Shown piece after piece: positions 15,938 through 43,435 of a stretch of DNA of 64,000 nt. Within the stretch, counting starts at the first letter, position 1; the number at the start of each line of letters is the position of its first letter. The stretch comes from Platerodrilus igneus (taxonomy: Eukaryota; Arthropoda; Insecta; Coleoptera; Lycidae), in contig JARFIW010000999.1 in the NCBI GenBank assembly GCA_036346225.1, positions 7,807,501 through 7,871,500 of the forward strand. Direction: 5' to 3'. A program made the translations under genes and the position numbers. The notes under the pieces were generated by a model. The model saw only the letters and a list, made by a program, of their open reading frames with translations. It did not search any database and was not told the origin of the DNA.

Positions 15938-16821
15938 TTAAATGTTGCACAACATCGTGCTTAATCTTTGTTTTATATCTTTTGTGCTTTTCCCATCTTG
16001 CGTTATTTGGCTTCCTAGGTAGCAGAAATCCTTAACCTCTTGTAAGTTCGTGTTAAATACTTGTATTCTTGTTTTTGATTTATTTTCCCTACCTTTGCAA
16101 ACTAGAACTTTAGTTTTAGTTTTGTTAATTTTCATACCATATGTCTCTGTTAGAACCGTTTCCATTTCATTAAGAGCAGCTTCTAACTCTTCCTTGCTAG
16201 ACGCTAATACCGCAATATCATCTGCAAATCTAAGCATATCAATTTTTGATCCCTGCATAGTAATTCCAAATGTCTTCCTGCATTTGACAGTATTTATTGC
16301 CTCTTCTATGTACAAGTTAAAAATCAATGGGGATAAGGCACATCCCTGTCTCACCCCTTTCCTAATGTTTACTTCTCTACGTTCCTGCTCTAATTCTATT
16401 ACTGCTGTTTGCTGTTTGTATAAGCTATGTACTATTTGTCTATCCCTATAACTCATTCCAATCTTTTTGAGTATTTCAAACATTTTTTTCCATTTTACAT
16501 TGTCGAAAGCTTTTTCCAAATCTACAAACCCTATATACACGCTTTCCCCTTTTTCTATTGTTTTCTCCATTATCACTCTCAGAGCTAAAATAGCCTCCCG
16601 TGTTCCCCTGTTTCGCCTAAACCCAAATTGGTCTTCTCCTAGTATTTCTTCAGCTCGTTTTTCCATTCGTCTTTGCACAATTCTAGTTAATATTTTTGAC
16701 ACGTGTGCTGTCAAACTTATTGTTCGAAAATTTTCACATTTATCCGCGCCTTTCTTTTTTAGTATAGTTACTATGATGCTACGTTTGAAATCTTTGGGTA
16801 TCTCGCCTGTCTCATACATAT
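15938..16821 (-). pseudogene. RTE copy A: reverse transcriptase palm
   Basis: It is continuous from YMYETGEIPKDFKRS through FGFRRNRGTREAI, GFVDLEKAFDNVKW, RQGCALSPLIFNLY and FADDIAVLA (the metal-binding Asp pair) to CYLGSQITQDGKSTKD. This is the best preserved palm of the three RTE copies. It is an RNA-directed DNA polymerase that copies the element at the nick. It is cut off from its upstream part by the 1.9 kb insertion. Confidence 0.9.
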
Positions 16822-16825
16822 AGCT

Positions 16826-18759
16826 TGTAATGAATATATTTTCTGTAGCACTATTTTTGCAAAAATCACATCTGTACAATTTTAGTCGGTGGTATTTAAT
16901 TCTCGTATTTAATACTGTTATATCTGAAAGAAACAATTCCACAATGGAACAGGAAATCATGACCGTCTAAATAACTTAAATGCTTTACTCAGAAATATTT
17001 AATAATAATATACGCTCACAAAACATATTTAAAAGGGAACGGGTCGTTTGTGTTGCCTAACTTACAGGCGGATTATACCCTTTCTAGTCGTTAAAATTAG
17101 GATAGCGCCTGCGTGATTACGGTCACGAGGTGATGCGCCACGCAGATAAGCGGCGCCGTGCTTGCTAGGAATGAAGAACAAAGCGGCCATTTGTATTTGA
17201 GAATGTAGCTTAGACAGGATCATCTACAGATGTCCTCCCAAATTTTATATAAGTGGGGCCTCAGAATAGGCGTGCCGGAGTAGAGGCAGGAGGGCTGGTC
17301 GTCTTGGGACACAGAGAAGATTTTTATTCCTGTGACACCGGCAAGGCGCTTGATCACGCTTCTCCTTTGAAATGGTTCGAGTCGGTATTTGTTAACGGTA
17401 AGACCGCATTATTCAAATAATTTATAAAATATCTTTATTTCCTTAGCGCATGATGTAGTAACATACATTTGAAGTACACATGAATTAACTAGATATACGT
17501 ATAAAGAGACTGGGACAATGTTCGTTTGTTAAGAAACTACAGCTGTTGTTTGGTGTTTGGTTACAACCATTTAGTAAGCAGATTTCAGAAAACGTGCGTC
17601 GCAGTTTGATAACTAGGGATGACGGCTTTATTAAATACAGGTATCAAACCTTTTTTTGTTATGTTTGTGAGACCTTGAGTGTGCTCACATAAATTGTAGT
17701 CGAAAATTGCTTAGTTATACTACATTTTGTGCATAAAGAACAGCGTGGAGGATTATTGTTACGAAATGCTATTTCAATAATTTTGTAAGATATGCAGAAC
17801 ATTCACATGTTAAAAATGATGAGATTCTAAAGTCCATTTCCTGTTGTCTAGAAAGTTCCTTACAGATGTCAAATTTTAACAAGCTCATTATACTTGAATA
17901 AATTGAAATGTTATTTATCCAATTTAGCTACATGTGATTTAATTTTTTTAGAAATAATTTAAACTCAATGTGAAACACATGTAAGCCAATAAACAGATCT
18001 GAGTATTTGGTATCAGAAACTTGTTATAAAATATTATTAAACTTAAGGTTTTGTTATGTCAAGGCAGATGTATAAAGACTCCAATCTTATTATTTCATTT
18101 TTGTAAACATATTTAGAAAAAAAACGAAAAGAGAGAAACTATATTAAATTTCATTTTTAGACTCAAGTTTTTTATTCCATGCACAATTAATTTTACTAAA
18201 ATTTTTTTAAAGAAAATAAATCTTTGAATAATGAAAGTAGACGAATGCTGAAGTAATTTAAAAAACACATATGCTACAACTGATTTGTTCTAGGTATTCA
18301 TTTTTGATTTAAATATCTTTGGTGTGGTAATCTTAACATTATACACCTGTAATTATTAGTATGCTTTTTTATTGGAAAGCACAAACAGTGTCTTTTTAAT
18401 AGAAAGTTTGTTGTGTATTTTTTCTTTCAGGGTCTTCGAGATTGAAGAGGTTGTAAGTATGTTCCAGAGGTTTACAGATACATTAGTTCAGTAAGTTGTA
18501 AGTTTTTTATGGTGCTTATATCCCATGAGTTTCTGTATCTTCTCATAGGAGTAATGAATTTCTAGTGTTATCGTCCATATAGATACAGTGGCGCTCAATC
18601 CCCCTTTTTCTTTTTATGTTAGCTTATTGTAGAGTTTAGACCATCCCCCCACCCTTTCTCATTGCTCACCCTTGGGGTAATTCCCAGACTTAGCTGCGAA
18701 CCAATAAGGCTTCATTTGTATCCAACTAGTGGAGGCCATAAAAAATAAAAAAGGTTACA
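16826..18759. mobile_element. 1.93 kb non-coding TG...CA insertion with 4 bp TSD, inside RTE copy A
   Basis: AGCT is repeated at 16822-16825 and 18760-18763. The inserted DNA starts TGTAATGAAT and ends AAGGTTACA, that is TG...CA, the ends expected of an LTR. No long frame is present. On the plus strand it has a TATATAA (17246-17252) followed by a GC-richer stretch and a consensus donor (AACG|GTAAGA at 17398), and later a 22 nt acceptor-donor bounded segment (18431-18452). It may be a solo LTR, an LTR element without genes, or another class with TGTAA/TTACA ends. Confidence 0.65.
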
Positions 18760-18763
18760 AGCT

Positions 18764-19536
18764 TACAAGTTGGAAGAGACGTTCTGTTACTGCTTGTCCA
18801 GCGGCTTTTAGAGTTTCTGCTTGCACCTTATCTGTACCCGGCGCCTTACCATTTTTCAGACTCTTTAATGCTAATTCAAACTCGTCTCGTAGTATAGGAT
18901 ATCCCAAGTCATCATTTTCAATGTCCGATTCCTGTTCTAATGCAGTTAGTTCCTCTCCTGCATATAAATTCCCTATATATTCTTGCCATCTACTCACTTT
19001 CTCTATGTTTTCTATAATGACGTTTCCTTGTGCGTCCCTTATATTTTTGCTATCTTGTTTTATATCCCTAAAATTCATTCTAATTAATTTGTATGCTTCG
19101 TCTGTCTTTCCTATTTCCATCTTAGTTTGTACCTCTTTGCACTTTTCATCAATCCATTGTTCTTTAGCTTTCCTGCATTTTCGAATAATTTCCCATTTTA
19201 TTGCTTTGTATCTCTGTTTTCCTGTTTCGTCTGATTTATTTTGTATTTTCGTCTTTCATCTATTAAATTCACGATATCCTTTGTTATCCATGGTTTCTTA
19301 TTTTCTTTTTGTGTATACCCCAGAATATCTCTGGCCGCCATGTCTAGGCTGGATTTAATGTTATCCCATTCTGTTTCTACTTCCTTAGTTTCAGATATTT
19401 TCCCGATATCATTCAGCAATTCATTTGACTTTTTTTCGAATCTTACTTGAATATCTTTATCTTTTAGTTTCTCTAAGTCCAAGTGCCTTTTTCCGTTCCT
19501 TTTTTTCAGATTTTTAAATTTAAGTGCGACCTTCAT
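18764..19536 (-). pseudogene. RTE copy A: linker and first reverse transcriptase motifs
   Basis: It covers LKFKNLKKRNGKRHLDLEKL through the basic linker to LRDEFELALKSLKNGKAPGT and DKVQAETLKAAG, the N-terminal reverse transcriptase segment. There is a frameshift between the pieces near 19120-19200. The sequence breaks off at LFQLV exactly where the 16826-18759 insertion begins, and resumes on the other side with YMYETGEIPKDFKRS. Confidence 0.85.
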
Positions 19537-19664
19537 AATTACGATGTTGTGGTCAGTATCTATATCTGCTTCTGGGTAGCTTATACAGTCTTTTACTTGA
19601 TTCCTAAACCGTTGTCTAACAAGAATGTAATCTATTTGATATCTCTATCTATCTCTATCTCTAT

Positions 19665-20393
19665 CTATCCTATATCTCCTGGCATCTTCCACGTATATCG
19701 TCTTTTAGCATGATGTTGAAATAATGTGTTTGTGATGATTAAATTGTTCTTGTCGCAAAATTCTACCAGCCTATTTCCCCTGTCGTTTCTCGTGCCTAAA
19801 CCAAATAAACCTACTACCGCTCCTTCCCTCCCCTCACCTACCACGGCATTAAAATCCCCCGTAATTATTAAATTTTCATGTCCTTTTACGTATCTTAATA
19901 TGTCTTCGATATCTTTGTAGATGGTTTCTACCTCTTCGTCACTATAGTTAGAGGCGGGCATGTATACTTGTATTATTACTGTGTTTACCGGTTTAGATTC
20001 TAATCTAACCATGAGTACTCTTTCGTTCTTTTGTAAGTAATTTTCTACACAGTATCCTATCTTTTTCCGCATAACTATCCCCACACCCTAATTTCCTTCC
20101 TCTGCTCCTGTATGAATTACCCTGAAGTCTCCACTCCAAAAATCCCCCGCCTCTGGCCACTGAACTTCGCTGATCCCTACTATGTCTAGTGATAACCTAT
20201 TCATTTCGATTTTTAGGTTCTCTAGCTTACCTACTTGCTTCATACTTCTAACATTCCACGCTCCGACTCGCAGAATGTTCCCGACTCTTATTTTTAACTT
20301 TCCGATCGCATCCTCTGAAGTAGTCCTCTCCCGGAGATCCGAATGGCGAACTATTTTAACTCCGGAATCTTTTACCCCAGAGAATGCCAACAT
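19665..20393 (-). pseudogene. RTE copy A: AP-type endonuclease domain, broken
   Basis: It reads [18 protein letters not shown], then [13 protein letters not shown] with the catalytic Glu, GDFNAVVGEGREG and RYTWKMPGD. The frame is open except for one TAG (20088-20090, probably from TTG) after HTGAEEGN. At 19640-19675 a TATCTC/TATC microsatellite has expanded in the coding region, between the MPGDIG and QIDYILV segments. This enzyme nicks genomic DNA to prime reverse transcription. Such fragments are often named craniofacial development protein 2-like because of a domesticated RTE endonuclease segment in that family. Confidence 0.85.
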
Positions 20394-23700: not shown

Positions 23701-25196
23701 GTGAACGAATATGGACATGTGTGGTGAAGTGAGTCGGTGAAGTGATCCTTCCCTTATTACCATCTTCCTGTATCTAAATAAAAAATACCTGTGCTTGGTC
23801 GTCGAGGAAAAATGCAGAAGAATCCACTAGCCCACGATCTCCAGCCGAGATGCAAAAACCAACCAGGCCTTGTAACCATTTTTTATAAAAAAAGAAACAT
23901 GAAAAAATTTGCTACATTATTTATTTGAAATCCTAAAAAATAAATTTTTGTGTTCATTGTAAATTTTTAGTTCCAGATGGAAAACAATAAACAATCCGTT
24001 ATTTCCTGTTAATTCTATTGCAAGGTTAAATTCCATACTTCTTTGTAATAACAAATTATATACTTCAAGTGTTTGAAATCTTGCTGTGAACATCGTCAAA
24101 ACCTCAAGGTAATTGTTTAAAATTTAACATTAGAAATTGTAAGTAAATACATTATTATTCTCAAATATTTCAAGGTTTTCCGTGTTGTTTTATAAATATA
24201 GCTGGTTGTCTGTCCTGGTTCTGTTAGGTATTTGTCTTCTTCACATAGTTCTGTGTAGATAGGGTTTTCCGGAACCCATCGTTCTTATAGTCATTTTGAT
24301 AATTTGGTCACTTCTATTCCATCCTTCGAGACACCCATAATGAAGTCGTTGATGCACAAAACCTAAGAATCCTAATACAGCTTAGCCCTTCCAAGATGTG
24401 GTCTGAAATAGTATGAATTTTTACAGGAGAATGTGCAATGCAATTGATGTCAATAAACTTTTATGGTTCCATCTAATAAAATCCTGCAACACCACAGAGT
24501 TGTTTCATCAGAGTGACTATCCACAACTTGCTATTAAGGGCAAGTGATTTATTCTTTTGCTGAATTTTTTACAGGATTTATGAAAAGCCGGTTGTATTAA
24601 ACAACTTTCCTTAGGGCTTAAGACGTCTACTCACCCATTATCCTAATTAGACGTAAAAGTACTGTCTTTTCAGTCCATAGGAATTTCTTCGTAAAATAAA
24701 TTATAATTGAAATTTCAATTCTTTAATTTAAGATTTTTTGTTAAAAAAAAAATAACTTAAGTAAATTCCCTTTTAAAATTTGTAAAAATTAGAACTTTCC
24801 TTTGTTTGTTCTTCTCATTTATAAGGTTGGACTAAAGAAATATTTTTTAAAAATTTCTTCGAGTAGTGATTTACAACAAATTTGTCTTGTATAAAAGTGG
24901 GAAAAAACTCGTTAATTCTTATTCTATAATTAAAAATTTAGCTAATTTATTTTATGGAAATGTATGTGGTATGCCAGATCTGACAAATCATTGTTGAACT
25001 AACAACTTTGTAAATGTGTAAACTATTTAGAAATTCGGTTTGAGTAATTGTAAACCTAAAACCTGTGATATTATTAGATAATTTTATAAAATATGAATTT
25101 TATAGTGTTATGATAAAAATATTTATTTCTGAAAAACAAAATAGACGTCATTATGTTGGCAGTTTTTTTGTATCTTGTAATTTAAGAGTTACATAT
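20706..25196. other. 4.5 kb without recognisable genes
   Basis: No coding exon or transposon protein found. The sequence CTTGTAACCATTTTTT occurs at 20869-20884 and 23869-23884, possibly as TSDs of a 3 kb non-coding insertion. A segment on the minus strand around 22650-22785 belongs to the dispersed family also seen near 18590-18690 (minus) and 60170-60300 (plus). A GGTAAGTAAG donor-like site lies at 21262. Confidence 0.4.
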
Positions 25197-25779
25197 TGTA
25201 GCGGGCTAATACTACCGCGTTTCTTTAATTTAAAACAAGTAATAACAAACGTCTTTATTACTTACTGTTCACAAGTCTAATTAACAGTATATGCCTTATT
25301 TATAGATGTTTTCAGGACACTTAACAATGAAGCACTACTACACTAATGAATTGACAAGCACTAATATCTTCTTAAACTAACTCCTCTACCATAAGTCCAT
25401 TAACCACTAACACAACTATTTATTTATACACTTCTATTTATTTATGTACACTACAAGCTGCATGTACATTAGACACAGCATATCATTTATGTATATATTC
25501 TAAAAGCTCAACTACGCTTACTGTACACGATATAATTTATATTAGACATTCAAGAATAGACTGACTCTTGCATTCATTAGCGGTCTTATATATACTCTGG
25601 ATTACAAGGATGACTCATGCTCCCGTAATTTCTAGAAGAATTCTGGAATCCTTGAGAATACGCTGTGCCTAGAGCGTTTGTATGTAATTGATTGTTAGAA
25701 GAATTCTCGTATCCTGAAAAGTATGCAGAGTCTACAGCGCTTGTGTGTTTGATGGGTTGCCTAGTAGTAGCTCGCAACA
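25197..25779 (-). repeat. gypsy-1 3' LTR
   Basis: On the minus strand it runs TGTTGCGAGC...CCGCTACA. Its first 194 bp also encode the C-terminal 63 residues of the macrodomain frame, with the stop at 25586-25588. It differs from the other LTR at GGACAC/GTCCAC (near 25315) and GTTAG/GCTAG (near 25694). Confidence 0.95.
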
Positions 25780-26359
25780 CTACCCCCTCTTTAAAACCGT
25801 TACGTCTCGTAACTGTAGATACATTTTGGCGCCAATTGGATGACTTATGACGGTATCGGCAGCTATCTCCTCTGGTGCATCCACCACGTCGTTGGAAATA
25901 ACAGTCAACACTCTTTTCTTGGTCTTGGTAGGTAACCGGTTGAAAACAACAAACAAGGACCTGGATGTTGGTTCCCTGGAAAACTACTTCTAGCATATTT
26001 CGGACTATCCTCCAATCCAAGCGATCCAGTCCACAGCCCAGCTTGGGCACCGCTAGTCTCGTTACTCCATTTTCCATCATCTGCGCCTTAAGATTTAGCA
26101 AAGCCTCCCATAGATGTCCATAACTAGGTCTCTGCCATGAAGAATTTTTGGTGACCAGATAGTAAACATAACGATTTTTATCTTGAAGAACCAAAGCTTT
26201 TCCTACAGTTGGCCGCTGTTGTACTAATTCATCCACACATCCAAACTTTTTCTTGAAAACAACAGCTATTCCCCTTGACATTTCCAGATCTTGAGCTACG
26301 CAATGTGCAAGGGAATACTCTTCTGGTGCTCTTGTGCTCTTTGTGGATTGTACAACCAC
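25586..26359 (-). CDS. gypsy-1 accessory frame: TARG1/OARD1-like macrodomain + CCCH finger + repeat tail
   Basis: A 257-codon frame in the -1 register to integrase, overlapping it by 64 bp. It has no ATG before codon 27, so translation probably comes by frameshift or fusion to Pol. Residues 16-140 match ADP-ribose glycohydrolases of the TARG1/OARD1 type: YSLAHCVAQDLEMSRGIAVV, FKKKFG, YYLVTK with the catalytic Lys (71), and VPKLGCGLDRLDW with the catalytic Asp (112). The first strand carrying the family GDLF motif is missing, and loop 1 reads SRG where GAG is usual. Residues 153-171 form a CCCH finger (C-x7-C-x5-C-x3-H). The tail (about 200-250) has two 20-residue repeats (SAVDSAYFSGYENSS, TNALGTAYSQGFQNSS). 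FKEGVV (189-194) is encoded by the polypurine tract and the rest by the LTR. The family enzyme removes ADP-ribose from proteins; the role here is unknown. Confidence 0.88.
   Translation of the reverse strand: MVVQSTKSTRAPEEYSLAHCVAQDLEMSRGIAVVFKKKFGCVDELVQQRPTVGKALVLQDKNRYVYYLVTKNSSWQRPSYGHLWEALLNLKAQMMENGVTRLAVPKLGCGLDRLDWRIVRNMLEVVFQGTNIQVLVCCFQPVTYQDQEKSVDCYFQRRGGCTRGDSCRYRHKSSNWRQNVSTVTRRNGFKEGVVLRATTRQPIKHTSAVDSAYFSGYENSSNNQLHTNALGTAYSQGFQNSSRNYGSMSHPCNPEYI
25780..25795 (-). promoter_or_regulatory. gypsy-1 polypurine tract
   Basis: Directly before the 3' LTR the minus strand reads TTTAAAGAGGGGGTAG, the expected primer for plus-strand DNA synthesis. It is also in frame as codons 189-194 of the macrodomain protein. 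Confidence 0.8.
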
Positions 26360-27890
26360 ACTAAATCTCCAGGTTGATAACCACCTTCTTGCGCTCTCGT
26401 GTCATATTGTGATTTCATTCGATCGCTTGCTGCCTGTATATTCTTTCGGACGCTTTCGTGAATACTATTTGATCTTTCACGAAGCTTACTAACGTAATCT
26501 TCACCGGCGATCTCTTCTCCAGGTTTAAATCCAAACTGAAGATCACATGGTAGCCGCAGTTCACGTCCTAGCATTACGCAAGCGGGCGAGTATCCTGTGC
26601 TGTCGTGTACCGAAGATCGGTACGCCAGTAGGAACAAATGCAGATATTGGTCCCAGTCTCGTTGATGTTCAGAGACAACTTTGGCCAGGTACTTCCCTAA
26701 CGTCCTGTTCATTCTTTCAACCATTCCATCTGATTGGGGATGAAGTGGCGTGGTTCTAGTCTTCCTGATTCCAAGATGCTTGCAGACATTTTGAAACAAT
26801 GCTGATTCGAAGTTTCGACCTTGATCGGAGTGTAATTCCAACGGAACTCCAAAACGACAAAACAACTCCCTGACTAGTACATCTGCAACCGTCTCGGCTT
26901 CTTGGTTAGGTATAGCATATGCCTCCGGCCATTTGGTAAAATAATCCATTGCAACCAAGATGTATTTATTTCCTTTCTCTGATTCAGGAAACGGACCAGC
27001 TATAGCAATGGCTACCCTCTCAAAAGGATTCCCCACGTTATACTGTCTCATTGGGGCTTTCCGTTTTGAGACCGGGCCATTTGCAGAGGCACACAATTCA
27101 CATTTCCGGCACCACTCCTTCACATCTTCTTTGCAGTTCACCCAATAGAATCCTTCTCTCACTCTTTCGAGAGTTCTTTTCACGCCAAAGTGCCCTCCGG
27201 AAATACCGTCGTGCAAGTGCTGCAACACTTCCGGCACTCTGCTTCTCGGCACAATCACTTGAAGTCTCTCAGTGCCATCTTCAAATTCCAGGCGTCGTTT
27301 CAAGATTCTATTTTCCATCATCAAGGAGTCCCACTGTGCCCAGTATGCCTTCAGGCTCCTACTTAAAATACTAATTTCTTCCCAAGCTGGTCGTTGTCCT
27401 CTATTTTTCCACTCAATAATACGTCCCAATTCGGCGTCATTCTCCTGGTCTTCTCGCATTCTTTTGGGTTGCCAAGTATCATCGGTTACCGTCATTCTAT
27501 GGATGACACTTATTTTCTCTTCCATCTTGGAGCAATGATTGCAGTCCACCGGACAAGGTCTCCTTGATAGAACGTCTGCATTCCGATGGCTAGTTCCTAC
27601 ACGATGTTCTGTATCAAAGTCATATTCCTGCAGCCGCTCTATCCACCTTGCCACTTGCCCTTCAGGATTTCGAAACTGCAATAACCATTTTAATGTAGCG
27701 TGGTCTGTTCTCAACAGGAATTTACGGCCGTATAAGTACTTATAAAAGTGCTCTACGGATTTGACGACGGCCAACAGCTCCCTTCTTGTCACACAATAGT
27801 TTCTTTCCGGCCGCGACAAGACTTTGCTAAAATACCCAATAACTTTTATCTTGTCCGTCCTGCACTTGAGAAAGAACGCCTCCTATAGCT
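26296..27890 (-). CDS. pol: gypsy-1 Pol part 3: RNase H and integrase
   Basis: The RNase H part begins at [19 protein letters not shown] (about 27890) and passes one more frameshift at an AAAA run near 27845. It then continues LSRPERNYCVTRRELLAVV and RTDHATLKWLL. Integrase follows with an H2C2 finger (HDGISGGHFG..CRKCELC) and the core: HSDQGRNFES and PQSDGMVERMNRTL keep the second Asp and the Glu. The first Asp, expected in the AIDIAGPFP-type motif, is Ala here (RVAIAIAGPFP). The C-terminal GDLVWLYNPQR is followed at once by the overlap with the macrodomain frame. Integrase inserts the cDNA; this copy should be inactive. Confidence 0.9.
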
Positions 27891-27893
27891 GTG

Positions 27894-28718
27894 TTACTGG
27901 CATCGGTATCCAACACAAATTTCCTCCATCCGTGGATAACTCAAAATTGGTGCTGTAACTAGTAGCCGTTTCAGTTGTTCAAATGCTCTGTGGCAGTCGT
28001 CATTCCAATCATATTCTTGTCCATCTTCGGTTAATTTTGTTAACGGTTTGGCAATGTTTGCAAACCCAAGTATAAAACGTCGGTAATATGTGCACAATCC
28101 TAGAAAACTGCGTAGTTGGTGTATATCTGTTGGTGTAGGCCACTCTTGTACCGTTTTTATTTTGTCAGGGTCAGCTCTTATTCCGGTCTCCGAAACGACA
28201 TGTCCTAGGTATTTCACCTCTTTTCCAAACAGGTGACACTTCTTGGGGCTCAATGTAAGGTTTGCCCCCCGTAATCTTTGGAATATCTCCTCTAGGTTCT
28301 TAAGGTGTTCTTCAAAAGACCGACCTAACACTATCACGTCGTCTAGGTACACCAGGCAAGTCTTCCAAGACAGTCCACGCAGTATCGACTCCATCAACCG
28401 TTCAAAAGTAGCAGGAGCATTGCATAATCCAAACGGCATGACCTTGAACTGCCATAATCCAGTTCCAATTGTGAACGCAGTCTTTTCTTTATCGTTTGGC
28501 TCCAAGCCCACCTGCCAGTATCCGCTTTTCAAGTCCAAGGTCGAAAACCATTTGGATTTGGATAGAGTATCCAAGGTGTCATCAATTCTGGGCAAGGGAT
28601 AGCTGTCTTTCTTTGTCACATTGTTAAGCCGCCGGTAGTCTACACAAAACCTTGTCGACCCGTCCTTTTTCTTGACAAGCACTACCCGGGGATGCCCATG
28701 GACTATTCGAGGGTTCAA
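27894..28718 (-). CDS. pol: gypsy-1 Pol part 2: reverse transcriptase
   Basis: The conserved order is [50 protein letters not shown] (YxDD active site) and [11 protein letters not shown]. The conserved reading starts at about 28695 at VVLVKKKDG; the few residues upstream in this frame are out of register. It ends by frameshift near 27905, where an A run is too short (the SYPRMEE... reading shifts before FVLDTDAS). This enzyme copies element RNA into DNA within the particle. Confidence 0.92.
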
Positions 28719-29817
28719 TTACTCCCTGTTCTTCCATGTCAGTAATAATTTGCTCGGCTTCCTTACGTTTTGCCAAAGGAAGCCGCCTGGGGTGTTGTCT
28801 TATCGGTTGCGCATCTCCAGTATTGATCTTGTGTTGCACAACATTCGTCCTTCCTTTCTCACTATCATCCAGTGCAAACACATTTCGATATCGTCCGACC
28901 AGCTCTTTTACCTTGCCCAGTTGGTCGCCATTTAATCCTTGACACGAGGGTATCAACATATCCAGCAATTTCTGTGAGCAACCGTTGGTTGGTTTATTTT
29001 TCGTGTCGTCCACACAACGTTTAATATGACATACTGGAATGCAACTTCCCACAATCATGCCTTTCTTCAGGGTCACTGTATGGGGATTAATGTTCAGCAC
29101 CCTTACTGGTACCATATTTCGAGACTTTACCAGCGTTCTTCCAATCAGAAGTCCCTCCTGACCCATTCCCGATTCAGTTGCTTCCATCATGCATACTTGT
29201 CCTTCCCGGAGCGTACCATCCGGGTGTCCCATTACTATCATTTCCGCCTTCTCGGGTATTTTCATATCACAAATCATTCGAACTTGCATCGTCTGGTTAC
29301 TCCTACCTTGAAATGGAATCTCATCATCATCTATCCGAAGCACATTTTCTTTCATGTTTACATGAAACCCATATTCTCCCATGAGATCCATTCCCAAGAT
29401 CACTTCCTCTGTAATTTCAGCTACCAACACTCGATGATTAATTAATTTGTCCCCAATTGTCAACATAACGGCAGTCTCTCCGTGAGTACCAATCTTCTCA
29501 CCACTTGCCGTTCGGGGACACACCGATACAGGTAGCACTTTTCCACGACCAACCAAATCTGGTCTCACAATAGTTCTTGTCGCTCCTGTATCTACAAGTA
29601 ATCGGACAACGCTACCATTAATTCTACCATCGATATAAATGCTGTCCAGACTTTCCACCGACGATGCAGCACGGATGATAATCTCCGGGGCACTACGCTG
29701 TGCTGTCGAAGTTCGCCCCTTTACATGGACCAGTTTTGGCACAACCGGTTGTTTCTTTGGTTGAGTACAGCGTCTCTGCATATGGCCAACTTCACCGCAG
29801 CTCCAGCATCGTAGACG
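28624..29817 (-). CDS. pol: gypsy-1 Pol part 1: zinc knuckle and aspartic protease
   Basis: It is in the same frame as gag, just past the UGA. It opens with a CCHC knuckle ([15 protein letters not shown]-x2-C-x4-H-x4-C) and continues to the retropepsin motif [12 protein letters not shown] and [13 protein letters not shown]. The C-terminal part reaches the reverse transcriptase N terminus ([13 protein letters not shown], [18 protein letters not shown]). After PWASP the frame is lost: one extra G in a GGGG run near 28690 shifts it, and the true reading continues in the next frame. The protease would cut the polyprotein. Confidence 0.88.
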
Positions 29818-30891
29818 TCATCTCCGCGGTCGTTGTCTTTTCAGCCTTTCCGCCTTTCGCTTTTCAAACACACGGTTGATTATTTCATCTATGCTGTTCT
29901 GAGCTTGACCAGGTTCCTCTAAGGCAGATCGAACTCTGTGACTCACCCTATGTGATGTCTGCTTAGCTGCTTCAAATTCAAGCGCATGGGCCAGTGCATT
30001 ATCTAACATTATTGGCCGTGCTAATCTTAGCGCTTGCTGTATTTCGCCATCTTTAACGCCATCCACAAATGTTTGTACAGCCAGTTGTTCGAGGAAACTC
30101 TCTGGTGCCGTTGGATATGCCAATCTAACTAATCTGGCGATGTCAGCTTCGAATTCTTGCAGGCTTTCACTTGTCTTTTGCGAGCGGTTCTTAACTTGTG
30201 CGTGGTAAACCTGTTGAAGGTGGGCATCTCCATATCTCATCTCAAGCTTTGATGTTAAGAGGCCGTAATCATTCTGCTGGTGATCGGGAATTGTTTGTAA
30301 GATGTTAAGAGCCTCCCCCCGTATGGCCACTATTAAGGAGATAGCCTTCTCTGTGTCGCACCAACCGTTGGCTATTGCAGCAGCTTCAAATTGTTTCAAA
30401 TATGTGGGCCAGGGTGTTTTGCCATCGAATGTGGGTGGTTTCACTTTAAATTTAGACGGTATGGACTCGCTTCTTTCCATGGTTCTTATTTCTGGAATGT
30501 TCTGATTAACAACTTGGCTTGGTAATTCAAGTGGTCGCGTTGTTAGTGAAATCATTTGTTCTTGAAGTCTCATCACATCTTCTTCCATTTTTACCAATTT
30601 ATTATCCAACTTTTGCTCAACTGTTTTTACCTGTTCAGTTAAATCTTCTTTCAAGGCAATGGAACTTTCCTTTAATCTTTGTTCTAACGTGTATGTACTT
30701 TCATTCAACTTTTCTTCCACTTTGGCAGCATTTTCACTTAACCTTTCCATCATCTTAGCGTTTTCAGTAAACCTTTCATCTATTTTTATAGCATTTTCAG
30801 TAAGTGTCACTTGCATTTCGGATTTAAAATCCTTAAGGAAGTTCATTAAAGTTTCTGCCTCCATTTTACTTCGATTTCTTGTAACTGGCAT
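29818..30891 (-). CDS. gag: gypsy-1 Gag
   Basis: About 357 residues from ATG 30891 (MPVTRNRSKMEAETL). The open frame extends two codons further upstream to TTG 30897. A long heptad-rich helix (about residues 10-130, with repeated ENA.K and LNES.. patterns) is predicted to be a coiled coil. A gypsy capsid domain follows (PPTFDGKTPWPTYLKQFEAA, then ESLQEFEADIARLVRLAYP, to about 300) and a basic end (KRQRPRR). Gag forms the cytoplasmic particle that packages RNA. The frame ends at UGA (29818-29820), after which the same frame continues into a zinc knuckle and protease. The intact frame contrasts with the broken pol. Confidence 0.9.
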   Translation of the reverse strand: MPVTRNRSKMEAETLMNFLKDFKSEMQVTLTENAIKIDERFTENAKMMERLSENAAKVEEKLNESTYTLEQRLKESSIALKEDLTEQVKTVEQKLDNKLVKMEEDVMRLQEQMISLTTRPLELPSQVVNQNIPEIRTMERSESIPSKFKVKPPTFDGKTPWPTYLKQFEAAAIANGWCDTEKAISLIVAIRGEALNILQTIPDHQQNDYGLLTSKLEMRYGDAHLQQVYHAQVKNRSQKTSESLQEFEADIARLVRLAYPTAPESFLEQLAVQTFVDGVKDGEIQQALRLARPIMLDNALAHALEFEAAKQTSHRVSHRVRSALEEPGQAQNSIDEIINRVFEKRKAERLKRQRPRR

Positions 30892-30955
30892 ATACAAACT
30901 ACTTAATGTCTTTAGACTTGTGTTTTAAATTAATCACTATATACCCCACAAATGC

Positions 30956-30965: not shown

Positions 30966-31548
30966 TGTAGCGGGCTAATACTACCGCGTTTCTTTAATTT
31001 AAAACAAGTAATAACAAACGTCTTTATTACTTACTGTTCACAAGTCTAATTAACAGTATATGCCTTATTTATAGATGTTTTCAGTCCACTTAACAATGAA
31101 GCACTACTACACTAATGAATTGACAAGCACTAATATCTTCTTAAACTAACTCCTCTACCATAAGTCCATTAACCACTAACACAACTATTTATTTATACAC
31201 TTCTATTTATTTATGTACACTACAAGCTGCATGTACATTAGACACAGCATATCATTTATGTATATATTCTAAAAGCTCAACTACGCTTACTGTACACGAT
31301 ATAATTTATATTAGACATTCAAGAATAGACTGACTCTTGCATTCATTAGCGGTCTTATATATACTCTGGATTACAAGGATGACTCATGCTCCCGTAATTT
31401 CTAGAAGAATTCTGGAATCCTTGAGAATACGCTGTGCCTAGAGCGTTTGTATGTAATTGATTGCTAGAAGAATTCTCGTATCCTGAAAAGTATGCAGAGT
31501 CTACAGCGCTTGTGTGTTTGATGGGTTGCCTAGTAGTAGCTCGCAACA
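30966..31548 (-). repeat. gypsy-1 5' LTR
   Basis: Same length and ends as the 3' LTR. It carries an orphan copy of the macrodomain frame tail (31355-31549), open and differing by one residue (Asn to Ser). The flanking ATAT is at 31549-31552. Confidence 0.95.
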
Positions 31549-31552
31549 ATAT

Positions 31553-33385: not shown

Positions 33386-34876
33386 CTAATCTCGCGCCCT
33401 TCCCGCGAATTCTTTTAAGGCTGTCCAGAACGCCTTCTGGTTAACCACTTCCCCGACTTCCTCTAGGCTCTTTGGCCATGCCAGACCTAAGATAGCTAGT
33501 TTGTTATCAGCCAACCCACGATTTCCCGCCTCAAGCGGGCAGTCGAAGAGCACGTGCTCTGCGCTTTCCGCGTCCTCACCGCATTCGCAGCGGTCGCTGT
33601 TGGTTAGCCCGAACCTTTGTAAATACGCCTTCAGGGCGCCGTGCCCTGTTATCAACTGCACCATTTTGTGATCGAGCTTAACCTCGATCCTACCTCTAGC
33701 TTCTATGCTCGGTATGAATTTGTGGGTCAACCTGCCCGTGATAGCGTTGTTCCACCTCTCTTCCCATTGTCGAATTGATTTTTCGCGCAGCTTTCTTTTA
33801 ATCAAAGATTTCGGTATTGACGAATGTGATATTCGAAAGTCTCCCGTCGCGGCTTCTTTAGCTAATTCATCAGCCCTATCGTTTCCTACGTTACCATTGT
33901 GCGACCTGACCCAACAGAACTTTAAACGTCGAAACTCGAGCGCCGTACGCGCTATCCTCCAGACGTCCGCTTGGAGGTCTGTCGAGGTGTTCATGTTTGT
34001 TAAAGCCGTCAGCGCCGATTTACTATCACTGATTATATAATACTCGTTTCTGCCCGTATGGTTTATTACGTAATCGATAGCCTCTCGTATGGCTACCAAT
34101 TCGCACTGGAAGATAGTGCACCAGTTCGCGAGTTTGGTTTGAAACCGAAACACCTCCCTTTCCTGCTTATACACGACAAACGCCGCGCCTGCTTGCCCAT
34201 CGTCCATACGTGAACCGTCCGTATAAATTCTGATACCCATCGCGTCCTCATCACCTTCGACAAACTCGATTCCTCTAATATCAGCCGGGTGCCCCAACTC
34301 AGATACAACGATCTTTTTTGCAATTTCCCTATTACCAAGATTAAGATCTTCGATAATTTCGCGCCCTTTTCCTATATTTATTAATCGCCTATCTCTAATC
34401 TCCCTAACGACATATTCGATAGGGAGAGTCCTACTGATCACCAGGACAGCCTCCGTGGAGGTGGTCCTGTACGCCCTCGACGCTTTTACCGCGGTTATGC
34501 GTTGTACGCTCGTTAATTGACGCATCTCCCGAACTTTACAACCTTCTGCCCATACAGAAGCGGCGTACAGTATTGCTGGCTCAATTGCTCCGGTATAAAC
34601 CGTCCTCAGCGATTCGCCCCTGAAACCCCACTTTATTTTAGCCGCCGTCATCATTTTATTTGATATTTCGCCGCCCTTAATTTTTACGTATTGTACGTGC
34701 GCTTTCCAATTTAATTTATTGTCGATCTTGACGCCGAGGTAGGTAATACAATCTTTAAACGGGATTTTCTCCCCTCCTAGCTCTAACCTAGGAGGTCTCT
34801 GTCCTGGTTTCGTGCCGAAATAAAGCGCCTCTGACTTCGCCGTGTTAAATTTTAATTTTACCGCCTGCGACCCCAT
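33386..34876 (-). pseudogene. R1/LOA-like LINE: thumb, RNase H and C-terminal zinc-knuckle region
   Basis: About 490 open codons. They carry VKLKFNTAKSEALYFG and YLGVKIDNKLNWKAHV (thumb), then RNase H with IYTDGSRMDDGQAGAAF, CELVAIREAI, SDSKSALTAL and WVRSHNGNVGNDRADELA. All four acidic/His signature regions are present. A C-terminal Cys-rich motif (CECGEDAESAEHVLFDC) follows. The length and openness suggest a fairly young copy. Confidence 0.92.
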
Positions 34877-36083
34877 TCGTGTAATTTATTAAGCGCCTCG
34901 TTCGGTTTTGTGCGCATATCCCTTAGCAATCTCGATCTTACAATTAAAAGCGTGTCATCTGCAAACCCAACGATTGAGCATCCTGTGGGCAACTTGACCC
35001 TAAAGATGCTCTCATACAACAACTTCCAAAATGTGGGACCAGAACATGACCCTTGCGGGCATCCCCTTTCCACCTCACGCGACAGAACTTCACCCGTAAT
35101 TTCGACCTGTGCCAATCGCCTCGAGAAATAGCTCTTGACCAAAGACATCAAGTTTCGCGGACAACCCCTACGATCTAACTCGCAAACGATTAATGGCCAC
35201 CAGGCAGCATCAAATGCTCCTGAAATGTCCAAAGTAACAACGACACAGTACTCTTTAGCATCTCTTGCCTGCTTAATTTCCCCGACAACGAACTCTAACG
35301 CGTCGATAGTCGACTTGCCCTCCACGAAACCAAACTGTCGGTTATTAAAACCGCCGCTGTCTCGCACTAGGTGCTCAACACGCGTAGTCATAACGCGATC
35401 TAAAACTTTCCCCAGCAAGCTAATTGGACGATAGCTGCCCGGATCTGACGTATCCGTCTTTTTAGGTTTGGGTATAAATTTTACATTCTGGATTTTCCAG
35501 CAACGCGGAAAAACGCCCCTTTCTAAACAAAGATTAAACAACCCAACAAAGATACACGGGGCTAACAGGCACGCCTGCAGAGCTACGTCTGAGGTGATTC
35601 CATCATGCCCTGGTGCCTTCTTAGGGTTCATCCTCCTAAGAGCCCTGACGACCTCGTGAACTAGGATTGCTTTATCGGCACCTGTTCCTTGCGCTTCTGC
35701 AGCTTCCCGACGTACTAAATCGTGCGACCCTTCATCCCCCTCGGGATTATCCTATGGGAAACATTTCTCTAGTAAATATTCCGCTGTGGTTTTAAAACCT
35801 TCCGTGTTTTCGCCATTTGTTTTCTTTATATTACTGAGCGCGATTTTTTGTTGTTTTCCTCTAATTACGCGGTATGCGGTTCCCCAGGGTTCTTTCTGTG
35901 AGTTTTGCGTGCAGAATTCTTTAAATTTATTCGTTCGCGTTTCTTCTATTAATATTTTATATTCGCTGTAACTTTGATTATATTCTATTCTCCGTTGTTC
36001 TCTTATTTCTCCCGAGGCGCGTTGATAGCGGCGCCTCAGGTTACGCGTTTCTGCCCGCTTGGTGGTTAGTTCCCGGGTCCACC
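34858..36083 (-). pseudogene. R1/LOA-like LINE: linker and reverse transcriptase
   Basis: One frame is open from the truncated 5' end except for a TAG at 35752-35754. It covers APGHDGITSDVALQACLL, NVKFIPKPKK, SYRPISLLGKVLDRVMTT, QFGFVEGKSTIDALEFVV, TLDISGAFDAAWWP, GCPQGSCSGPTFWKLLY and FADDTLLIV (active-site Asp pair). A one-base loss in a G run near 34870 (HEWG) moves the remaining coding sequence to another frame. Confidence 0.9.
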
Positions 36084-36234: not shown

Positions 36235-37038
36235 TTGCGAGTCGGAGCGTGGAATGTTAGAAGTATGAAGCAAGTAGGTAAGCTAGAGAACATAAAAATC
36301 GAAATGAATAGGTTATCATTAGACATAGTAGGGATCAGCGAAGTTCGGTGGCCAGAGGCGGGGGACTTTTGGAGTGGAGACTTCAGGGTAATTCATACAG
36401 GAGCAGAGGAGGGAAATTTGGGTGTGGGTATAGTTATGCGGAAAAAGATAGGATACTGTGTAGAAAATTACTTACAAAAGAATGAAAGCGTACTCATGGT
36501 TAGATTAGAATCTAAACCAGTAAACACAGTAGTAATGCAAGTATACATGCCCACCTCTAGCTACAGTGACGAAGAGGTAGAAGCGATCTACAAAGATATC
36601 GTAGACATATTAAGACACCTAGAAGGACATGAAAATTTAATAATTATGGGGGATTTTAATGCAGTGGTAGGTGAGGGTAGGGAAGGAGCGATAGTAGGTT
36701 TATTTGGTTTAGGCACTAGAAACGACAGAGGAAATAGGCTGGTAGAATTTTGCGACAAGAACAATTTAATCATTACAAACACATTATTTCAACATCATGC
36801 TAGAAGACGATATACGTGGAAGATGCCAGGAGATATAGGAAGATATCAAATACATTACATTCTTGTTAGAATACGGTTTAGGAATCAAGTAAAAGACTGT
36901 AGAAGCTACCCAGAAGCAAATATAGACACTGACCACAACATCGTAATTATGAAGGCCGCACTTAAATTTAAAAATTTGAAAAAAAGAAACGGAAAAAGGC
37001 ACTTGGACCTACAGAAACTAAAAGAGAAAGATATTTAA
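36235..37038 (+). pseudogene. RTE copy B: AP-type endonuclease domain
   Basis: It is open from [18 protein letters not shown] to a stop after LQKLKEKDI. It carries ISEVRWPEAGDF (Glu), MGDFNAVVGEGREG, RYTWKMPGD and TDHNIVIM (Asp-His). In the QIDYILV motif Asp is replaced by His (RYQIHYILV), which removes one metal-site residue relative to copy A. Further decay follows; between FRDI and APGTDKVQAE about 70 codons present in copy A are missing. Confidence 0.88.
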
Positions 37039-37453
37039 GAAAGATTCAAAAAAGGTCAAATGAATTGCTCAAAGATCGGGAAAATATCTGATACTAAGGA
37101 AGTAGAAACAGAATGGAATAACATTGAATCCAGCCTCGACATGGCGCCAGAGATATTCTGGGGTATACACAAAAAGAAAATAAGAAACCATGGATAACAA
37201 ATGATATCCTGCATTTAATAGAAGAAAGACGAAAATACAAAAATAAATCAGACGAAACAGGAAAACAGAGATGCAAAGTCATAAAATGGGAAATTATTCG
37301 CAAATGCAGGAAAGCTAAAGAACAATGGATTGACGAAAAGTGCAAAGAGGTACAAACTAAGATGGAAGTAGGAAAGACAGATGAAGCATACAAACTAATT
37401 AGAATCAATTTTAGGGATATAGAACCGTATATAATGCGCCGGGTACAGATAAG

Positions 37454-37897
37454 GTGCAAGCAGAAACTCTAAAAGCCGCTGGACAAGCAGTAACAGAACG
37501 TCTCTTCCAACTTGTAAACTATATGTATGAAACAGGCGAGATACCCAAAGATTTCAAACGTAGCATCATAGTAACTATACCAAAAAAGAAAGGCGCGGAT
37601 AGATGTGAAAATTTTCGAACAATAAGTTTGACCTCACACGTATCAAAAATATTAACTAGAATTGTACAAAGACGAATGGAAAAACGGGCTGAAGAAATAC
37701 TACGAGAAGACCAATTTGTGTTTAGGCGAAACAGGGGAACACGGGAGGCTATTTTAGCTCTGAGGGTGATAATGGAGAAAACAATAGAAAAAGGGGAAAG
37801 CGTGTATATAGGGTTTGTAGATCTGGAAAAAGCATTTGACAATGTAAAATGGAAAAAAATGTTCGAAATACTCAAAAAGATTGGAATGAGTTATAGG
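37454..37897 (+). pseudogene. RTE copy B: reverse transcriptase, first half
   Basis: It reads MQAETLKAAGQAVTERLFQL, NYMYETGEIPKDFKRSII, FRRNRGTREAILALRV and GFVDLEKAFDNVKWKK. It stops where the 558 bp palindrome is inserted, at the end of IGMSYR. Confidence 0.9.
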
Positions 37898-38455
37898 ATA
37901 AAATAAAATGAAAAAACCCTTATCACAAAAAATATTTAAAATACCAGATACGTATTTCGACTGCTATGTGGTCATCATCAGTAGGAAATCTGTAATTAAA
38001 TAATAATTAGTTGTTGTTCTGAAACACTTCAGAGGATATTCTCCTCACCACTTAGGCTGAAGTGAACCTTCCCAACATACAATTTACTATATTGTTGCTT
38101 TATACACTATCGAGGATATTCTCCTCACCCGCAGGCTGGTGTTACTCACAACAAACAAGTGAATTCACTTGTTTGTTGTAACACCAGCCTGCGGGTGAGG
38201 AATATCTCGATAGTGTTTAAAGCAACAATATAGTAAATTGTATGTTGGGAAGGTTCACTTCAGCCTAAGTGGTGAGGAGAATATCCTCTGAAGTGTTCCA
38301 GAACAACAGCTAATTATTATTTAATTACAGATTTCCTACTGATGATGACCACATAGTGGTCGAAATACGTATCTGGTATTTTAAATATTTTTTGTGGTAA
38401 GGGTTTTTTCATTTTATTTTATTCAAATTGTGCCACAGTGTTTCTATAGATTATT
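37898..38455. mobile_element. 558 bp palindromic (foldback) insertion, 12 bp TSD
   Basis: ATGAGTTATAGG is repeated at 37886-37897 and 38456-38467, splitting the RTE reverse transcriptase. Positions 37898-38163 and 38164-38422 are near-perfect inverted copies with no spacer (centre GTGAATTCAC). 33 unmatched bases (38423-38455) close the right side. Each arm ends with a small hairpin (CCACATAGTGG) and GTCGAAATACGTATCTGG. The long TSD favours LINE-type retroposition of an inverted dimer over a cut-and-paste MITE. Confidence 0.85.
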
Positions 38456-39337
38456 ATGAGTTATAGGGTTAGACGGATAGTACATAGCTTATACAAAGAG
38501 CAAACAGGAATAATAGAATTAGAGCAGGAACGTAGAGAAGTAAACATCAGGAAAGGGGTGAGACAGAGATGTTCCCTATCCCCATTAATTTTTAACTTGT
38601 ACATTGAAGCGGCAATGAATACTGTCAAATGCAGGAAGACGTTTGGAATTACTATGCAGAGACAAAAAATTGATATGCTTAGATTTGCAGATGATAAAGT
38701 GGTATTAGCATCTAGCAAGGAAGAGTTAGAAGCTGCTCTCAATGACATGGAAACGGTTCTAACAGAGAGATACGGTATGAAAGTTAACAAAAGTAAAACT
38801 AAAGTACTAGTATGCAAAGGAGGGAAAAATATATCAAAAACAAGAATACAAATATGTATCACAAACTTACAAGAGGTTAAGGATTTCTGCTACGTAGGAA
38901 GCCAAATAACGCAAGATGGGAAAAGCACAAAAGATATAAAACAAAGATTAGCACAAGGTCGTGCTACATTTAACAAGAAAAAGCAACTACTGTGCTCAAA
39001 GACCACAAATATAGAAACAAGGAAAAGATTGCTTAAAACATATGTGTGGAGCACAGCACTGTACGACTGTGAAGCCTGGACAGTGGGGAAGCAGACCAGA
39101 AAAAGGTAGAAGCCTTTGAAATGTGGTGCTACAGACGTATGATGAAGATATCATGGACAGACAAAGTTAAGAACGAAGAGGTACTAAAAATGGTAGGGGA
39201 AAAAAGAAATATGTGGGAAACGGTAAAAAATAGGAGAGATAGGATGATAGGCCACATACTACGGCATGAGGGAATAGTGCGGAATATACTAGAAGCAGAG
39301 ATAGGAAAAAGAGAAGAAGAGGTAGACCTAGGTTAGA
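38456..39337 (+). pseudogene. RTE copy B: reverse transcriptase second half and C-terminal region
   Basis: It resumes after the palindrome with MSYRVRRIVHSLYKEQT and carries LSPLIFNLYIEAAMN, RFADDKVVLAS (Asp pair present) and CYVGSQITQDGKSTKD. After a frameshift near 39105 it continues with MWCYRRMMKISWTDKV and HILRHEGIVRNILEAEIG, then another shift (REEEVDLG*). The element's 3' sequence runs on to CCCAAGATGG (about 39448), just before the TG...CA insertion. Confidence 0.9.
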
Positions 39338-41249: not shown

Positions 41250-42295
41250 TAATGACGAAGAAAGTAACTGCACTTAAACATATATTTATTATAAGCAACT
41301 ACAAGCATTGGATGGGCAATATTCTCGAATTATGGTAATTGCGTGAAAGCATTTACTGGAAAACTATTATTTTGGCAAATGTCTAAGTGTTGGGGGATCT
41401 TGGCAACCACAGGTTGCTTAACCCCCTTCAATAAATCTCAGTGAAATAGGGCATAATATTAGAAAACAATATAAGGGGAAGCGAGCTATATTGCTGTGTG
41501 AGAATTTCAGAGAACTATGTAGGTTAGTTTAGAAAATAAATAAGTGCAGGTACATGTCCAACCAGTTTTGAGACAGGAAATTCAATGACGAAAAAATAAG
41601 CGCAATAAATCTGATGATTACTATAAACAACTAGTTGTTTGTTGTGAAATATCTGCAGCTAATGTTGACTGTGCTAAAAGATATATTGGAAAAAATATTA
41701 AATCAGTAAATGTTCAAGTGCTGGGGGAACTTGGCAGCCACAGGCTGCTTACCCCCCTTCCAACCACTGAATGTCGGAGAAATAGGGTATATAATTGTAA
41801 AACAATAGAAGGGGACCGAACTGCATCTAACAAGAAAGAACGGCACCTACGATGAAAGACAACAAACATAGAACAAAAAGTTGTTGAAAGCGTATGTGTG
41901 GAGCACAGCACAGACAGTATGCCTACGAAATACGAGCAGTCTGAAAAGCAGACAGAAGAACAGTAGCAGCCTTTGAAATGCCGTGCTTCAGATGTATGAG
42001 GATGGACAGACAAAGGTAATAACAAATATGTTATAGGAACAGTAAGGGAACAAGGATATCTTTGGGAAAAAATATGAGAAATAGAAGGGCAGAATACGTT
42101 CTAAGACATTTTTGGGGAATAGTATGGGATATATTACAAGCAGAGATAGGAAAAAGGAGGTCGATGTAGACCTAGATCAGATAGTGATAGATGCAGACTG
42201 TGCAAATTTCGGGGAAATCTGTAGGTTAGTTCAGAATAGGAAACAATGATGGTACGCGTCTAACCAGTTTCAGGACTGAAGACCCAATGATGATG
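41250..42295 (+). repeat. RTE copy B: 3' tandem array (two monomers and a diverged second 3' end)
   Basis: It starts AATGACGAAG exactly where copy A continues after its coding region. Two roughly 290-330 bp monomers (each with ..GTGTTGGGGG(A)..TGGCA(A/G)CCACAGG) are followed by a diverged RTE C-terminal/3' segment (KAYVWSTAQ-like near 41890, then CAGAGATAGGAAAAAGGAGG) and AATGATGATG. It is collinear with 13170-14093 and, in reverse, 14394-15447. Confidence 0.85.
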
Positions 42296-43271
42296 AACTC
42301 TTAACGAAATTTTGAAAATCTTTAGAGATAAATTGTGCACCATTGTCACACAGAATAATCTGAGGAACACCGAAGATAAGAAATACATTTTGCTCTAGAA
42401 ATTTAATTATAGTAGCAGATGTAGCTTTACGTAAGGGTTGCACCATAACAAATTTAGAAAACCAATCGGTGACAACTGAAAGATATCGGTTACCTTTTTT
42501 CGATCGGGCGAGAGGTCCTAATAAATCAAGTGATATTAATTGAAAGGGATAAGATACACGTTTAAAGTTACCCATTAAGCCAGAACGAGCCTCTTGTGAG
42601 CTCATATGAGAACCACAAATTTTACAGTTCCTAATATAACGACAGACAGATTGTTTTAGTGTGGGCCAATAATATAATTCAGATATTTTAGCGAGAGTTT
42701 TTGTAACACCAAGGTGCGCAGCAATGGGATCATCATGACATAATTTAAGCACTTCACTGCGGTTAGCGGTAGGGACGACAAGTTTCCATTCAGGGATGTT
42801 AGATATTTTGTGAGGTGAAGAAGATACAAATTTATATAATATATTATTCGTTACACGAAAGGTAGGAAATTTATCGGGGTTTTCAGAAACTTTTTTAATC
42901 ATATTAAGATACCATGTAGCAGGAATTAGATCTGGAAGGTTAAGAGAAACGACATCACGAGATAATGCATCAGGTACGATATTCAATTTGCCAGGCCTAT
43001 GCCTAACGTCAAAGGTAAATTGAGAGATACGTAAGTTCCATCTTGCCAAACGACCTGCGGGTTGTTTTAAGTTATTTAACCACGTGAGAGCTGCACAATC
43101 AGTAATTACGGTAAAATGTGTACCTTCAACATATCCTCTAAATTTTTCAATGCCAAAGATAACTCCCAATAATTCTCGTTCAGTAGCTGAGTATTTTTGT
43201 TCAGCAGAAGTTAAGGCACGATTTGCATAAGTGATCGGATGTTCTAGACCATTGCTCACCTGGAACAACAT
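42296..43271 (-). pseudogene. pol: gypsy-2 RNase H and integrase, 3'-truncated
   Basis: RNase H: YANRALTSAEQKYSATEREL, DCAALTWLNNLKQPAGRLAR and HRPGKLNIVPDALSR. Integrase: an H2C2 finger (HDDPIAAHLGV..CKICG) and the core with SLDLLGPL (first Asp) and LCDNGAQF (second Asp). The catalytic Glu region is lost, because the frame runs at FQNFVKS into the RTE tail sequence. Confidence 0.9.
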
Positions 43272-43435
43272 TGCACCTAAACCAGTAAGTGAGATATCGG
43301 TTTGTATATAAAATTTTTCATCGAAATTGGGTGAGATTAAGATAGATGCTGAAGTGATTAACGTTTTAATTTGTTCGAAAGCCTGTTGAGCTTCTAAATT
43401 CCACTTGATAATTTGGGACTTCTTTTTATTTTTAA

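Follow-up and report, generated by a model that had tools for sequence, protein, structure and literature searches.

The closest described relative of the protein domain discussed here is TARG1 (also known as OARD1 or C6orf130), the cellular terminal ADP-ribose protein glycohydrolase. TARG1 strips acidic residues of ADP-ribose and, when overexpressed, is recruited to damage sites (excerpt of PMC4695847); its substrates also include the bases thymine and uracil, and the Drosophila enzymes Targ1 and Targ3 are active on uracil (excerpt of PMC13036486). We describe a TARG1-type macrodomain that is carried, together with a CCCH zinc finger, behind the integrase of a Ty3/gypsy retrotransposon in a 64,000-nucleotide stretch of the genome of the beetle Platerodrilus igneus (contig JARFIW010000999.1, positions 7,807,501 to 7,871,500; "the window" means this whole stretch). 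The version of the domain in this and related beetle elements differs from the cellular enzyme: it is fused to an integrase and a CCCH finger, it falls in a clade of its own (support of 100/99 against 23 cellular rows of a tree), and its hydrolase activity is predicted.

Macrodomains that counter host ADP-ribosylation are known from RNA viruses. Those of alphaviruses and rubella virus belong to another branch (about 15% identity) and lie in replication proteins, not on an integrase. DarG and other bacterial TARG1-like macrodomains (25% identity) are antitoxins of a toxin pair; DarG retains only the lysine of the Lys/Asp pair (excerpt of PMC9411070), whereas the beetle-element family retains both residues. 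Among retroelements, some ray-finned fish epsilon-like sequences have frames for macro domain proteins (excerpt of PMC4977317, citing Basta et al. 2009), so that fish endogenous retroviruses are likewise retroelements with a captured macrodomain. As the same excerpt describes them, they differ from the beetle elements in being vertebrate epsilon-like retroviruses with additional frames. Chromoviruses, which are Ty3/gypsy elements with an integrase chromodomain, are alike in having an extra domain at the end of the integrase, after the GPY/F domain; the beetle elements instead carry the TARG1-type domain and the CCCH finger, and no chromodomain was among the Pfam matches up to E = 0.01 in five relatives. 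The sequence-only reading of the window knew of no gypsy family with this architecture, and among the listed results of our searches in the openly licensed literature we found no description of a gypsy element with a macrodomain, with Repbase and subscription journals outside the search. Repbase may well hold consensus sequences of the lineage without comment on the macrodomain.

Comparing the window with other copies in the same genome and with proteins of other beetles, we recognize a Ty3/gypsy lineage, recorded to date from beetles, in which Pol ends in a TARG1-type macrodomain and a CCCH finger; we put at about even the chance that this module is an integrase-tethered ADP-ribose eraser. 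The features of the window copy that bear on this are as follows.

25586 to 26359, minus strand: the reported macrodomain-CCCH frame, 257 codons with a GTG start (open frame list)
25952 to 26329, minus strand: TARG1/OARD1-type macrodomain, shortened at its N terminus, with Lys71 and Asp112 of the frame as the catalytic pair (Pfam, phmmer)
25847 to 25903, minus strand: CCCH zinc finger, C-x7-C-x5-C-x3-H (motif spacing; Pfam below cut-offs)
26332 to 26338, minus strand: junction at which 300 nucleotides of the siblings are replaced by 5 nucleotides (sibling alignment)
26296 to 27819, minus strand: frame for RNase H and integrase (H2C2 and core), with a truncated GPY/F domain (Pfam RT_RNaseH, Integrase_H2C2, rve)

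The sequence-only reading had placed this frame directly after the integrase of a Ty3/gypsy element and had recognized in it a TARG1/OARD1-type macrodomain, with its catalytic lysine and aspartate, and a C-x7-C-x5-C-x3-H finger. These identifications held; the strand, which it did not give, is minus. The Pfam Macro domain matches the frame with E = 9.3e-6 (26 bits against a cut-off of 22), and the top phmmer match is human TARG1/C6orf130 (E = 1.1e-35, residues 11-136, ungapped). Among the sequences of solved structures, five distinct TARG1/C6orf130 entries match at E of about 1e-35, and the next match is DarG at 1.4e-4. Lys71 and Asp112 align to chain positions 78 and 119 of 4j5r, which we take to be Lys84 and Asp125 of TARG1 (an offset of 6, from the residue range 12-152). 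The catalytic role of that pair is described in the excerpt of PMC9411070. The domain is thus of the TARG1 type in sequence and in fold, with both catalytic residues; the comparison with solved structures covered model residues 151-298. The macrodomain is incomplete in the window copy, where the deletion has removed roughly twelve residues from the N terminus of the fold; the siblings (other copies in the same genome) keep them. The finger has the spacing of the C-x7/8-C-x5-C-x3-H type (x7-x5-x3), and Pfam's CCCH models match the frame, all below their cut-offs.

In the window copy, the frame is shifted relative to pol, as had been noted from the letters alone, but this is not a trait of the family. 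An alignment shows that the same 300 nucleotides that are present in three siblings are missing from the window copy, which has 5 nucleotides instead (at about 26332-26338). The deletion removes the linker, the first strand of the macrodomain, and the greater part of GPY/F, and it shifts the reading frame. Of 101 loci, just 1, that of the window, contains the junction string of the deletion, and in 88 aligned copies no gap at this site exceeds 20 codons. Because the deletion is private to the window copy, the frame change that separates the macrodomain from the integrase is a defect of that copy. We fetched 40 sibling copies, 37 of which could be read from an anchor motif: GPY/F, macrodomain, and CCCH finger share one open frame in 30 of the 37, and both catalytic residues are present in 28 of those 30. 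In the other seven, there is a break between GPY/F and the macrodomain, or the GPY/F motif is unrecognizable. Judging from these frames and from the proteins of beetle relatives, the macrodomain-CCCH module is the in-frame C terminus of Pol, directly after the GPY/F domain of the integrase.

The C-terminal tail of the frame had been described as a repeat. Residues of about 194-257 lie inside the 3' long terminal repeat (LTR), in which a unit of about 59 bases occurs twice; we rejected a protein repeat, as the tail is 3' LTR sequence. The purine-rich run ahead of the 3' LTR is itself coding. Related proteins end in a conserved-looking LRRGQCN, which fits a tail that runs into the LTR (from protein sequences only).

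The presence of the frame in other copies had been set beforehand as the test of the capture. We searched the beetle's own genome (2.71 Gb in 1,723 contigs) with the window frame and obtained 181 matches from the best 148 of 19,332 first-look candidates; the open frames around these matches reach 1,683 codons, as given by the search tool. The first 92 copies (L010-L101) were picked by their macrodomain matches; because this choice favors intact macrodomain frames, we added 20 copies (L122-L141) from a search with the integrase core (best 144 of 63,614 candidates). Using tblastn, we found macrodomain sequence downstream of the integrase in 19 of these 20. A single chance insertion is therefore rejected. 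When we searched the genome with a host OARD1 as the query (best 150 of 8,818 candidates), the 12 loci that we cut out all read as copies of the element family, and neither the host gene nor the donor of the capture was found among them.

Other beetles contain relatives of the fusion. A protein search with the window frame gave 79 matches, the best of which include the integrase C-terminal domain, the macrodomain, and the CCCH finger in one frame; the rest are mostly cellular OARD1. With the macrodomain-CCCH part of a Molorchus protein (P0004) as the query, 55 of 82 matches have a precomputed Pfam domain of the integrase type (PF22938, PF24626, PF17921, or PF00665, counted by hand from the table). 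With the corresponding Aromia part as the query there were 197 matches, and the 120 listed are all from Aromia moschata, with proteins of up to 1,182 residues. The eight named hosts are all Coleoptera: Molorchus, Exocentrus, and Aromia (Cerambycidae), Callosobruchus and Gonioctena (Chrysomelidae), Brassicogethes (Nitidulidae), Harmonia (Coccinellidae), and Pyrocoelia (Lampyridae). Integrase Pfam domains occur in the same protein in Molorchus, Exocentrus, Aromia, Callosobruchus, and Harmonia; the proteins from Gonioctena and Pyrocoelia show integrase pieces only, by eye, and the Brassicogethes protein starts downstream of the integrase. All 17 relatives have the catalytic lysine and aspartate. 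The Pfam Macro model falls below its cut-off in each of the five relatives that we scanned, so the fusion is easily missed.

In a tree of 18 hand-picked element rows (the window, the eight named species, and nine environmental sequences) and 23 hand-picked cellular OARD1-type rows, the element macrodomains lie on one side of the strongly supported branch mentioned above, and the window macrodomain groups with that of Harmonia (support of 93/85). The tree makes it likely that there was one capture, followed by joint descent of integrase and macrodomain. Between 11 families, mean identity is 56% for the macrodomain and 68% for the C-terminal part of the integrase.

A comparison of nonsynonymous and synonymous changes had been proposed from the sequence alone, and it supports selection on the module. 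We used 88 of the macrodomain-picked copies (four without the anchor motif were dropped); the p values given here are optimistic, as the copies are related to one another. Changes seen in a single copy are near neutral, with a dN/dS ratio (omega) of 1.06 in the integrase core, 0.95 in GPY/F, 1.35 in the linker, 0.65 in the macrodomain, and 0.65 in the CCCH finger. For changes shared by at least 4 copies, omega is 0.14 in the integrase core (Fisher p = 3e-12), 0.10 in GPY/F (7e-4), 0.32 in the linker (0.037), 0.24 in the macrodomain (0.005), and 0.12 in the CCCH finger (0.036). Changes in 2-3 copies give 0.44 for the integrase, 0.58 for the macrodomain, and 1.02 for GPY/F. The stretch after the finger has an omega of 1.06, from four shared changes only. 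The integrase-picked set, in which 18 of the 20 copies were used (L135 is partial and divergent and L139 has no macrodomain match), gives an omega of 0.19 for macrodomain and CCCH finger together (changes in at least 2 copies), and 0.20 and 0.15 for the macrodomain alone (at least 2 and at least 3 copies). Thus, the counts indicate that changes shared among copies are under purifying selection, with an omega of 0.15-0.24 in the macrodomain, beside 0.14 in the integrase. Among the 88 copies, the lysine is retained in 86, the aspartate in 87, the three cysteines in 88, 85, and 86, and the histidine in 83.

Several observations weigh against the predicted eraser. First, the macrodomain has a frame-changing gap in 16 of the 18 scorable integrase-picked copies, and just one of the 18 is without gaps and stops. 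The macrodomain-picked copies, whose choice favors an intact macrodomain, have one in 39 of 40 and in 47 of 52 cases; for comparison, the integrase core is without frame-changing gaps in 44 of these 92. The recurrent one-base gaps are located in runs (GGGG, AAAAA, CCC, and GGG) and, by eye, recur on different nucleotide backgrounds. For these two reasons, sequencing error or slippage is likely, rather than the spread of broken modules; there may also be real decay, with copies spreading that carry a dead module. Second, the CCCH finger has an omega of 1.09 for changes in 2-3 copies and is intact in only 13 of the 17 relatives. Third, integrase and macrodomain distances correlate weakly (p = 0.33 with 46 amino acids; p = 0.079 with 102 amino acids, P0001 being left out for its deletion), so the distance test does not prove joint descent.

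In this lineage, Pol runs from integrase and GPY/F through a linker of about 35 residues to the TARG1-type domain and the CCCH finger, and its tail crosses the probable polypurine tract and enters the 3' LTR. On the eraser reading, to which we give about even odds, the module would stay on the integrase, or the element's protease would release it. A TARG1-type enzyme that is tied to the integrase would come to lie on the RNA and complementary DNA (cDNA) of the element and at its target site, where it could strip ADP-ribose from proteins or nucleic acids within the element's own complexes. Most likely, it would do so in the pre-integration complex and where the target DNA is nicked, a site at which host PARP would be activated. 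The CCCH finger might anchor the module on RNA or DNA. As a result, the element would escape host inhibition of its reverse transcription or integration, or the joint would be repaired faster.

That a retrotransposon lineage has kept a TARG1-type domain and its active-site pair across beetle hosts that include fireflies, ladybirds, and leaf beetles hints that ADP-ribose marks matter in the contest of insects with jumping genes. This raises testable questions: does ADP-ribosylation restrict insect retroelements, and can an integrase bear an eraser or a reader of ADP-ribose? In the most far-reaching version, which we regard as possible rather than probable, a beetle-wide lineage would encode an integrase-tethered eraser that cleans the element's own RNA, cDNA, or integration site of ADP-ribose; if so, ADP-ribosylation would serve insects to curb retroelements, and an integrase could bear a counter-enzyme in addition to a targeting domain.

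A rather less likely role is that of a reader: the macrodomain would mainly bind ADP-ribosylated chromatin, such as breaks, and direct the integrase there, as the chromodomain does in chromoviruses. The analogy is one of position, as both domains follow GPY/F in Pol, and a chromodomain at the C terminus of the integrase is a hallmark of chromoviruses (excerpt of PMC3605345). However, the catalytic Lys/Asp pair is retained, and a pure reader would not need it.

By analogy with the macrodomains of RNA viruses, the module might also act in the cytoplasm while the element is being translated and assembled. Its targets would be element RNA or host proteins, the CCCH finger would hold on to the genomic RNA, and the location in Pol would serve only as a route of expression. 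The spacing of the finger resembles that of RNA-binding fingers such as CPSF4 (a weak match), and TARG1-type enzymes act on uracil in RNA (excerpt of PMC13036486). But 4 of the 17 relatives have lost the finger, and we rate this role as high as that of the reader; the two are the main rivals of the eraser.

It is very unlikely that the module is a passenger, that is, functionless host sequence that is carried along. Broken frames in many copies are what speaks for it. But relatives occur in several beetle families, and shared changes in the macrodomain and CCCH finger depart from neutrality, with p values that the relatedness of the copies makes optimistic: there are 20 nonsynonymous and 35 synonymous changes in the 88 copies (p = 1.3e-8 against neutrality, or 3.1e-5 if the lower singleton ratio is taken as the baseline), and 11 and 21 in the 18 integrase-picked copies (p = 5.7e-6).

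Least probable, and in our view rejected, is the nef-like accessory gene of the sequence-only reading: the frame stands alone after the integrase in the window copy and does extend into the 3' LTR, as a nef-like position would have it, but its separation from Pol comes from the private deletion, and in siblings and relatives it continues the Pol frame.

The rest of the element in the window comprises the following features.

31548 to 25197, minus strand: the whole Ty3/gypsy element (LTRs and Pfam domains)
30966 to 31548, minus strand: 5' LTR, 583 bp, with TG..CA ends (580/583 identical to the 3' LTR)
25197 to 25779, minus strand: 3' LTR, 583 bp, which codes for the last 64 or so residues of the reported frame (LTR comparison)
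31549 to 31552, strand not applicable: target-site duplication ATAT, first flank (sequence reading)
25193 to 25196, strand not applicable: target-site duplication ATAT, second flank (sequence reading)
29818 to 30897, minus strand: gag frame, with an in-frame stop just ahead of the CCHC knuckle (frame list)
28624 to 29781, minus strand: frame for the remainder of the CCHC knuckle and the aspartic protease, extending into the reverse transcriptase (Pfam gag-asp_proteas, 6.3e-10)
27894 to 28718, minus strand: reverse transcriptase frame (Pfam RVT_1, 1.1e-39)
25780 to 25792, minus strand: purine-rich run adjoining the 3' LTR, probably the polypurine tract, within the coding frame (by eye)

Protease, reverse transcriptase, RNase H, and integrase follow one another in successive minus-strand frames (Pfam), which is the domain order of Ty3/gypsy elements (Metaviridae). 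The LTRs have the expected TG..CA ends, and ATAT is duplicated on both flanks. The many copies, the relatives in other species, and the purifying selection support capture by a Ty3/gypsy family. The window copy is a recent and defective one. Its Pol is divided among several frames, and its gag stop is private, a stop at the same place being absent from all 20 siblings compared. Its LTRs are 99.5% identical despite the gag stop, the split Pol, and the 300-nucleotide deletion; some of these lesions may be older than the insertion, or they may be assembly errors. At the gag/pol junction of the 20 siblings (L102-L121), the CCHC knuckle and protease share one frame in 6, the gag frame ends with ..VEQQEN* shortly past the knuckle in 11, and 3 have variants.

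The searches with the module also returned two other kinds of fusion. P0148 joins a TARG1-type domain to an N-terminal part that, by reading, resembles a piece of flap endonuclease, and the protist protein P0145 combines the macrodomain with a precomputed WWE domain (PF02825). A scan of viral contigs gave one locus, L001:512-1033, where a 78.8-kb contig carries an OARD1-like gene of 173 codons; no integrase is among the listed frames of this contig from a viral collection, which is perhaps a eukaryotic stretch.

Elsewhere in the window, by reading of translations with no family search, a second Ty3/gypsy-like element lies at 42270-44481 (minus strand), with no macrodomain among the frames listed. 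In the same way, we noted what look like pieces of two types of long interspersed nuclear element, one at 15938-20393 (minus strand) and 36235-39109 (plus strand) and the other at 33386-35631 (minus strand).
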